Of a stretch of DNA of 64,000 nt, positions 27,460 through 59,887 are shown piece after piece. Below the pieces are notes generated by a model. The model was not told the origin of the DNA and made no database searches. It worked only from the letters and a program-made list of their open reading frames with translations. The DNA is taken from NCBI GenBank assembly GCA_013151865.1, contig JAADHN010000089.1:1-64000 (forward strand), written 5' to 3'. Position 1 is the stretch's first letter. Each line of letters begins with the position of its first letter. Origin of the DNA: Kiritimatiellota bacterium. Lineage in GTDB: Bacteria; Verrucomicrobiota; Lentisphaeria; Oligosphaerales; JAADHN01. Made by a program: the position numbers and the translations under genes.

Positions 27460-27955
27460 GTGCCGCCTTATCGCGCCCGTTAACCAAGCTCGTCGCCGAT
27501 GCAAGCGTGCCGTGCGTCTGACGACGCACCTTGGGGGCCGGGATTGTTATATCAAATTGGCCGCCGGTTTTGTTTGGGGACGCTGTACGCCTGTCGATAC
27601 AGACCGGCGGCACGATTCCCGAGCGAAACAGCGACCGCTGGCATGTGCAAACATGCGGAATGAAGATCTCCCCCTCGGATAATGCGTACGGTCTCTGCCA
27701 CGATGCCGTGTCCAAGTGGCCTTGAACACATTGCAGCACGGCGACCGAAGCGGTGTTTCATTTCAACACAGGCTTGTCCCTCGTTCGTCACAACGGAACA
27801 GGCCGCGTCCTCTGGGGACGAACTTCACGAGTTACTCCTTGGCGCCCCCGTTCAACGGAACAGGCCGCTCTGAGACGGTCCGCGATCAGGTTGACAGCAA
27901 GAAAAGTCGGTGCTGCGTAGCTCACTTGCCTGGAATGGATAAAGGCGAGAAGTTC
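27460..27955. other. Intergenic region holding repeat element copy C
   Basis: This 496-base spacer separates lspA from the DksA-like gene. It contains the diverged element copy C (listed separately) and a 16-base direct repeat (27791-27806 and 27853-27868). No protein gene is supportable. Confidence 0.5.
27705..27830 (+). repeat. Dispersed intergenic element, copy C (degraded)
   Basis: This stretch aligns with the reverse complement of copies A (50.4 kb) and B (59.5 kb). Shared blocks are GCGACCGAAGCGGTGTTTC, then AACACA, then CTTGTCC, then GCGTCCT. Copy C has five extra bases (a duplicated TTTCA) inside the loop of the GTGT/ACAC hairpin and lacks some 7-10 bases further on. The element is not in a coding frame. 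Borders are approximate. Confidence 0.55.
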
Positions 27956-49989: not shown

Positions 49990-50391
49990 ATGACCAATAT
50001 CGATGTTGTTGATGTCAGTTTCCCCGGCGGCAAGAAAATCACCGCCATCGTGGATGGGCATGTGGTGCAAACAGACCAGCCCGAACGCGCCGGCGGCGAA
50101 AACTCCGCACCACAGCCACTCAGCCTCTTCCTGGTCTCGCTCGCCACCTGCGCGGGGACGTATGCCCAGGAATTCTGTCATGCGCGAAAGATCGCGACCG
50201 AAGGCATGAAGCTCACCGTTCGGTGTGTGTGGGATTCGGACCAACACCGATACACCGGGATCAAGTTTGAACTGGCTCTCCCCAAGGATTTTCCGGAAAA
50301 ATACAGGCGCGCCATCGTGCGGGCCATGAATCTCTGCACCGTAAAACGCTGCATTCTCGATCCGCCCGAATTCGAGGTCGAAACCGTGTGA
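49990..50391 (+). CDS. OsmC-family protein
   Basis: The 133-residue protein is a small OsmC-like protein with two conserved cysteines, in SLATCAGTYAQEFC and MNLCTVKRCI. In OsmC/Ohr enzymes such cysteines reduce organic hydroperoxides; here both regions have two Cys each. PQPLSLFLVSLATC and KKITAIVDG-HVVQTDQP also match the group (YhfA-like subfamily). It probably handles thiol or peroxide stress. CAGGAGC lies before the ATG. Element copy A follows directly after it. Confidence 0.85.
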   Translation: MTNIDVVDVSFPGGKKITAIVDGHVVQTDQPERAGGENSAPQPLSLFLVSLATCAGTYAQEFCHARKIATEGMKLTVRCVWDSDQHRYTGIKFELALPKDFPEKYRRAIVRAMNLCTVKRCILDPPEFEVETV

Positions 50392-50864
50392 CCCGATTAA
50401 TTCTTGAACTTCGTCGTGAAAGGACGCAGCTTGCACGGATCCAGGTCATTGCGTCCAACGCCGGACAAGGTTGTGTTGAAACACCGCCTCGGTCGGCGGA
50501 CTGCGGCAATATTCCGGAAACGTATGAGATACGCCATCGCAGCCGATGGCTCATGCAATACTCAAGGTAGGGGGCTGCGTTTCGCCAACCCGCCCCCGAA
50601 CACGGCGGGACGCCCCCCGCACCGGTACTGACAAGTTCAGGATGAAAAAACCGGAGGCCGACGGTCGGGCAGCCGGAGTTACCCACAGTCGGCAACTCGG
50701 CTCCGACGAGTGACTTGCGACCCATTCTCGCCGCCGCCTATGGATAACTCCGGCAACGGGGGGAGAGGTCAACTCGGCGCGTAACGCGCTTTTACAGTGA
50801 CTGTTACGGCGAAATATCGTGGTGAAAATTGACAGAACCCCCCGCACCGCCCCGGAGAGACTAC
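50392..50864. other. Intergenic region holding element copy A
   Basis: The 473 bases between the OsmC gene and the sugar isomerase contain element copy A at about 50411-50603. Downstream of it lie a T-poor stretch and the region just before the isomerase ribosome site. A small frame on either strand crosses the element but shows no domain. Confidence 0.5.
50411..50603 (-). repeat. Dispersed intergenic element, copy A
   Basis: This copy shares about 190 aligned bases with copy B at 59.5 kb, including one exact 21-base match (50472-50492 against 59565-59585) and a second exact match ATGGCTCATGCA. On the minus strand it can fold into consecutive hairpins: CCGCC-GACCGA-GGCGG, GTGT-TTCA-ACAC and GTCC-GGCGTT-GGAC. 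Copy C at 27.7 kb is a shorter relative. No reading frame runs through all copies, because small gaps shift it. It may be a structured RNA or a dispersed repeat. Borders are approximate. Confidence 0.65.
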
Positions 50865-59426: not shown

Positions 59427-59887
59427 GGGGTATCCCTCAGCCTCTTTTTGCCCGGACCGTTTGCTGGAGTCCGGAGTTTGCTCCAATCATTTCATGGACG
59501 CCGTCCTGAGAAGGCGCAGTTCCTTATTGCGGATACAAGTCATGGCGTCAAGCGCCAGCAGAGCTGTGTTGAAACACCGCCTCGGCAGGCAAGCGACGGC
59601 AATGTTCTATAGACGCGTGAAATGTGTCGTCACGGCAAATGGCTCATGCATGATTCAGGTTGGAAGTCGGCCCCCCCCGAACGCAACGCCCGAATCCTGC
59701 CTTTCCACGGTCCCAACCTCCCACGTAAAACTTCAGCTCGCTTCACGGCCTTGCCGGCCCATTTGCACAACCAAACGCCACTTCCCTCACGCAGCGTCCG
59801 AGTCGTGTCGGCTTTCTGCACTCGCAACCACTCAGCGAGAGTCCATTCTTACTGGTGCGTACAAAGAACGGACCGGCGCGTTCTCCA
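59427..59887. other. Intergenic region holding element copy B
   Basis: The 461 bases between the RND gene and the small thioredoxin gene (both minus) contain element copy B at about 59500-59683. The rest lacks a gene or terminator. Confidence 0.5.
59500..59683 (-). repeat. Dispersed intergenic element, copy B
   Basis: This is the closest relative of copy A, with the exact 21-base match at 59565-59585 and ATGGCTCATGCA further on. On the minus strand it can form GCCT-GCCG-AGGC, GTGT-TTCA-ACAC and GGCG-CTTGA-CGCC hairpins in the same order as copy A, although the third uses different bases at nearly the same place. It lies upstream of the small thioredoxin gene. Borders are approximate. Confidence 0.65.

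Follow-up and report, generated by a model that had tools for sequence, protein, structure and literature searches.

Small bacterial repeats are usually regarded either as remnants of transposons or as sequences that now and then regulate host genes. Several small bacterial MITEs that give stem-loop transcripts have been well characterised, including ERIC, NEMIS, RUP and YPAL (PMC2229807). The ERIC/IRU, NEMIS/Correia, RUP and YPAL repeats (~100-200 bp) are non-coding and mostly intergenic, carry terminal inverted repeats and a target duplication, and form a long stem-loop by pairing of their 5' and 3' ends (PMC2229807). The reviewed ERIC-type repeats are listed from one genus, or from enterobacteria and their near relatives, and most have TA at their ends (PMC2229807). 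REP/RAYT and TIRtron repeats are scattered palindromic sequences in which the fold of one strand is important, and REPs are 20-40 bp long with a GTAG tag at one end (PMC3733652). The bcr1-bcr18 repeats are dispersed sequences of 100-400 bp, present in tens to more than 100 copies, with features of mobile elements; they are reported to be restricted to the Bacillus cereus group, have a TTTAT motif, and are proposed to move by a mechanism resembling site-specific recombination (PMC6542083). The IS1380 family (PF13701) is the prokaryotic outgroup of piggyBac (PMC10813416).

Here we describe a family of dispersed 175-bp elements that shares with the ERIC-type repeats the features listed above. In contrast to them, it is flanked by YTAR duplications, extends to several phyla, and shows a covarying fold of one strand despite neutral decay of its resident copies. 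A conserved RNA fold is also a property of bcr1. The element further differs from the bcr repeats in its YTAR target, and from the much shorter REPs in having a duplicated YTAR at both ends. It resembles IS1380 insertion sequences in its terminal repeats and in YTAR flanks of the same kind, whereas these carry a transposase and do not have this hairpin body beyond the terminal repeat. What is new is the cross-phylum, strand-specific and structure-conserved body, together with the contrast between spreading and resident copies; the element works like a MITE.

The family was found in the window, the stretch of 64,000 nucleotides analysed here (contig JAADHN010000089.1, Kiritimatiellota bacterium). 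Its features are as follows.

50392-50566, plus strand: copy A, element body of 175 bp, from the family profile and covariance model
50392-50407, plus strand: left terminal inverted repeat of copy A, CCCGATTAATTCTTGA (family form CCTGATTAATTCATGA), from the sequence and family alignment
50551-50566, minus strand: right terminal inverted repeat of copy A (family form read inward, CCTGAATAATGCATGA), from the sequence and family alignment
50388-50391, unstranded: left flank GTGA of copy A, a decayed YTAR target duplication that overlaps the stop codon of the OsmC-like gene
50567-50570, unstranded: right flank GTAG of copy A, a decayed YTAR target duplication, from the sequence and family-level duplication evidence
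49990-50391: OsmC-like gene (PF02566), with its stop codon directly before copy A
59483-59659, plus strand: copy B (covariance model 46.4 bits, E 2.9e-9; nhmmer 124.2 bits)
27676-27837, minus strand: copy C, very degraded (nhmmer 56.6 bits, E 6.3e-17)

Copy A is 84% identical to the family consensus and scores 174.7 bits against the family profile (nhmmer) and 120.8 bits against covariance model R1 (E 1.4e-27, with copy A itself in the training set). A TIM-barrel isomerase-like gene (PF01261) lies well downstream of its end. Copy B lies between convergently placed genes, and the worn copy C, recovered by the profile search, was missed by the covariance model at E 0.01. The three copies belong to one family, as the initial annotation had proposed. 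It was also right that copies A and B match over about 190 bases and share an exact 21-base block at 50472-50492 (TGTGTTGAAACACCGCCTCGG; 93 nt, 72% ungapped identity). The true unit, however, is 50392-50566 with 4-bp flanks, so that the span first given for copy A, 50411-50603, missed the left end and overshot the right end by about 37 nt.

The repeat occurs in the window's genome far beyond chance. A 24-base piece of the element has 76 matches there with at most three mismatches, while the reversed pattern has 0. We collected at least 93 distinct copies, each about 175 bp and 85 of them full length; this number is a lower bound, and first-look candidates numbered 162-499. The copies diverge from their own consensus by 15.5% on average. 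By predicted genes, obtained with a home-made codon-usage predictor, 72 of 87 copies are intergenic and many adjoin gene ends. Two copies in the same orientation lie about 190 bp apart at G000:C77:40868-41425 (L007:1122-1309 and L007:1501-1679).

The initial annotation held that a protein match, or a lack of further copies in the genome, would speak against a noncoding element. Further copies are abundant, as shown above. Open frames of 60-154 aa do cross copy A, as would be expected of a decayed protein gene, yet none of the three tested matches Pfam, the copies differ by indels, and hairpin covariation, described below, accounts for the conservation. We consider the chance that the element is a decayed gene to be negligible. 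The window has no Rfam match at gathering scores, and related loci gave only chance-level matches to eukaryotic microRNAs. The 'skipping-rope' hairpin motif was rejected as well, since Rfam gave no match, and a literature search listed no paper using the term. No account of the family turned up in Rfam or in the searchable literature. The proposal of a dispersed noncoding element or structured RNA holds in outline, given the copy number, the lack of Pfam and Rfam matches and the covarying fold. Its description as new to this lineage also holds in outline, although the family is not confined to it and extends to Bacteroidota.

The element is sharply bounded, and terminal inverted repeats of about 16 bp, CCTGAWTAATTCATGA, are present at both of its ends. 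The repeat reads CCTGA(A/T)TAATTCATGA at both ends, with TGCATGA at the right end in the window's genome, and a 4-bp YTAR target duplication flanks each side. In many other genomes, matching flank pairs (TTAG/TTAG, CTAA/CTAA, TTAA/TTAA and CTAG/CTAG) surround paired terminal repeats. Since the TTAG/TTAG and CTAA/CTAA duplicates are non-palindromic, the flank cannot belong to the inverted repeat. In the window's genome the flanks have decayed, yet left and right still match at 154 letters, compared to 127.6 +- 7.2 when shuffled, a value reached in 0 of 2000 shuffles. By the tests made here, the element is a transposed non-autonomous DNA element, a MITE. The stop triplets TAA and TAG both occur within YTAR, and this would account for the many copies that adjoin gene ends.

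Shortened forms with deleted centres span 26-105 bp. In the minimal forms of 26-33 bp (L143:2547-2572, L174:6002-6027, G016:C336:4859-4884 and L134:1808-1840), the two terminal repeats are fused at or near their common TCATGA core, with TTAA on both sides in L143 and L134. They possibly arose by deletion of the hairpin's inner part, or represent the minimal form able to move. In genome G175, a 205-bp variant (L348:165-377, G175:C38 and other repeat pairs) stands beside the 175-bp form; the two share their subterminal sequences, and the longer one also folds over its full length, with additional side hairpins at the tip. Elements found in Neomarinimicrobiota/Marinimicrobia genomes have these terminal repeats too, along with TTAA/TTAG duplications (L105:1958-2134, L215:2352-2528, L216:418-612 and L180:3838-4024). 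Their interior is unrelated and has several internal inverted repeats, marking another MITE family with these ends; L105, L215 and L216 were rejected as family members for their different interior, which lacks this hairpin.

The consensus of the copies in the window's genome folds end to end into a single, imperfect full-length hairpin, at -99.0 kcal/mol for the plus strand versus -67.0 kcal/mol for the minus strand. The initial annotation had instead proposed three consecutive hairpins on the minus strand. These can be drawn for copy A, whose best folds are -60.3 (plus) and -63.6 kcal/mol (minus), but they are not the conserved structure. With copy A this worn, we read them as local remnants of a degraded copy.

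The same end-to-end hairpin is formed, with different arm sequences, by 173-177 bp elements in Lentisphaeria, Verrucomicrobia, Cyclobacteriaceae (two types), Marinilabilia and Bacteroidales. Covariation between lineages, which the initial annotation had suggested examining, is strong: in an alignment of 21 elements, RNAalifold gave 46 pairs, 32 with compensatory changes on both sides. Cells that pair amount to 90.3% of this alignment, against 71.4% when shuffled and 33-41% with partners slid, although the slid control flatters a structure derived from the same alignment. The covariance model provides an independent check of the fold: it recovered full-length hairpins in four genomes outside its training set (G175, G230, G240 and G167). 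The terminal repeats of these hairpins have diverged, as in CCCGCATTTCTCACCA.

Across the window's phylum, covariance-model matches were found in 7 of 289 sampled genomes, so the distribution is patchy. Among the seven, the match in G323 is weak and favours neither strand (G.U:A.C 2:2). Searches of plasmids and phages gave no match to the element. Carrier host names were taken from record titles, which may mislead. For example, L214, titled Nealsonbacteria, bears a copy of the Lentisphaeria type, and a contig titled Candidatus Paceibacterota has the repeat in the same position as a contig of G012, from the window's order (L202 and L047, G012:C260); titles or binning are doubtful in these cases.

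If the arms were merely decaying, or were kept only as double-stranded DNA, then G.U and A.C should be equally frequent on each strand. Beyond arm position 36, nine element types oriented by their end sequence gave a G.U:A.C ratio of 52:10 (p 6e-8), and one copy from each of five later-found genomes gave 32:4 (p 2e-6); because the element types share ancestry, both p-values count the changes as too independent. We rejected the idea that the bias arises from picking the stabler strand, as orientation by end sequence only, with the lineage left out, gave the same strand. The exceptions to strand agreement are L160b (G.U:A.C 1:4) and L310 of G240, whose orientation score is near zero. In most lineages, G.A mismatches also recur at two places in the arm, near positions 38-39 and 48-49.

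These features bear on whether the hairpin is kept by DNA processes, with quasi-palindrome correction copying one arm from the other in an ordinary snap-back MITE. Templated correction could be the source of part of the covariation. The elements are near-palindromic, such correction would make the arms change together, and covariation alone cannot tell the two apart; the deleted-centre forms show that these palindromes do rearrange. Correction yields perfect pairs, however, which leaves over the same-strand G.U excess in independent lineages and does not account for the G.A mismatches. We consider it unlikely to be the main explanation.

The resident copies behave differently. At consensus Watson-Crick pairs, private mutations of copies in the window's genome gave 393 G.U and 384 A.C, and 26 pairs leaned one way and 32 the other, so that the bias was looked for among these copies and was absent. 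Double changes were in small excess (110 versus 83 in shuffles), which may stem from subfamilies. With the symmetric resident mutations set against the G.U excess between lineages, the simplest reading is that selection acts on the fold of one strand in spreading copies but no longer acts on it in resident ones. The folding strand, as RNA or single-stranded DNA, thus appears to be under selection during spread, after which resident copies decay. RNA is the usual substrate for a G.U-over-A.C signature, and single-stranded DNA would give the same signature.

The symmetry of resident mutations also weighs against biased mutation of transcribed source copies without selection on the fold. C-to-T changes on one exposed strand would make G.U from G-C pairs in either arm and so mimic the bias, but such mutation alone would keep neither covariation nor the fixed G.A positions, and we regard this explanation as very improbable indeed. 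Nor do the resident copies point to a host function, in which a transcribed hairpin would stabilise or destabilise the mRNAs of adjacent genes, an effect reported for ERIC and NEMIS. The mostly intergenic positions, often adjoining gene ends, would suit such a role, and it has known precedents (PMC2229807). Upstream genes, however, are co-oriented with the element's plus strand in 24 cases and opposed in 42, which gives no bias toward plus-strand co-transcription, and the fold of resident copies is unconstrained, although single copies could have been co-opted. A general host function is therefore very unlikely. One detail of the initial annotation changes accordingly: nothing indicates that resident copies are preserved as host RNAs, and their mutations are neutral with respect to structure. 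Copy A itself is worn debris of the element, with no hint of a function.

The ends of the element point to a candidate mobilising enzyme. When species genomes were scanned for the terminal repeat preceded by YTAR, many phyla were among the matches listed. At four loci, PF13701 (IS1380 transposase) genes lie within ends and YTAR flanks like those of the element. L072, in a genome of the window's order (G020), has a PF13701 gene without internal stops, flanked by CTAA and CTAG; L219 (Marinilabilia) has one with two stops and CTAA on both sides. Partial PF13701 genes were found in L228 (Nitrospira), adjoining an exact CCTGAATAATTCATGA with CTAG, and in L223 (a Chlorobi genome), with TTAG. Several Bacteroidota carriers also have PF13701 (G042, G044, G050 and G051). 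In carriers of the window's own phylum it was found in 0 of 9 genomes tested; it may have been lost, may be missing from draft assemblies, or another enzyme may move the element. The IS1380 copies seen have no similarity to the hairpin body beyond the terminal repeats, and complete IS1380 elements gave no covariance-model match covering both ends. Judged from its ends, the element is likely mobilised by IS1380.

In the drifted-end carriers G167 and G175, a terminal-repeat search for an autonomous element gave bounded hairpins or short forms, with no complete transposon recognised. In L124, L127 and L160, the intervals between terminal repeats, considered as candidate larger elements and rejected, held ordinary-looking genes separating distinct copies.

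Another candidate mobiliser is a RAYT/IS200-type HUH (Y1) transposase, which would bind the hairpin in the form of single-stranded DNA. Such enzymes recognise REPs through strand-specific hairpins with required mismatches (PMC3733652), and Y1 genes are present in 9 of 9 carriers of the window's phylum. Genomes that lack the element have them at a similar frequency (8 of 10), however, and unlike REP/RAYT systems the element has no close link to Y1 loci, with at most one weak and one marginal match near 30 of them. A variable tetranucleotide duplicated at both ends fits a staggered DDE cut rather than Y1 insertion. We give a Y1 mobiliser a very small probability.

Together, these data argue for an account that we hold to be probable, if by no means assured: the family is a MITE of about 175 bp, most likely moved by IS1380 into YTAR sites, whose plus-strand fold is needed while it spreads. 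The terminal repeats would be recognised by a DDE transposase supplied from another locus or cell, most likely an IS1380 family member, which would place the element into YTAR sites, often those at stop codons. As long as a copy spreads it would require its folded plus strand, most likely in the form of RNA, with single-stranded DNA the less likely option. The fold could serve, for example, in protection of the element or in control of its transposition. Inserted inactive copies, including those in the window, would then decay without constraint on the fold.

More tentatively, the folded strand may itself belong to the life cycle of the element, which would have to make a defined structured RNA, or a hairpin of single-stranded DNA, in order to spread, with its structure conserved across phyla; we put this at somewhat short of an even chance. 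Under this reading, the sequence turns over and the terminal repeats drift, perhaps following different transposases. If true, the element would parallel, in bacteria, those short elements of eukaryotes in which only the active source copies retain the RNA fold. The comparison of spreading lineages to resident copies suggests that the fold is constrained only during spread. Whether MITE hairpins serve the element itself therefore becomes testable, and a culturable host, Marinilabilia salmonicolor, is available, whose strain MSL42 has full-length copies in L121 and L172.

The family also matters for environmental genomes, where many contigs end inside such repeats and the element lacks an Rfam model. 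In several Proteobacteria bins (L101, L128, L161 and L163), contigs break off some 120 bp into sequences that closely resemble one another; these open with the same YTAR and terminal repeat but differ from the 175-bp hairpin, and are probably a repeated insertion sequence.
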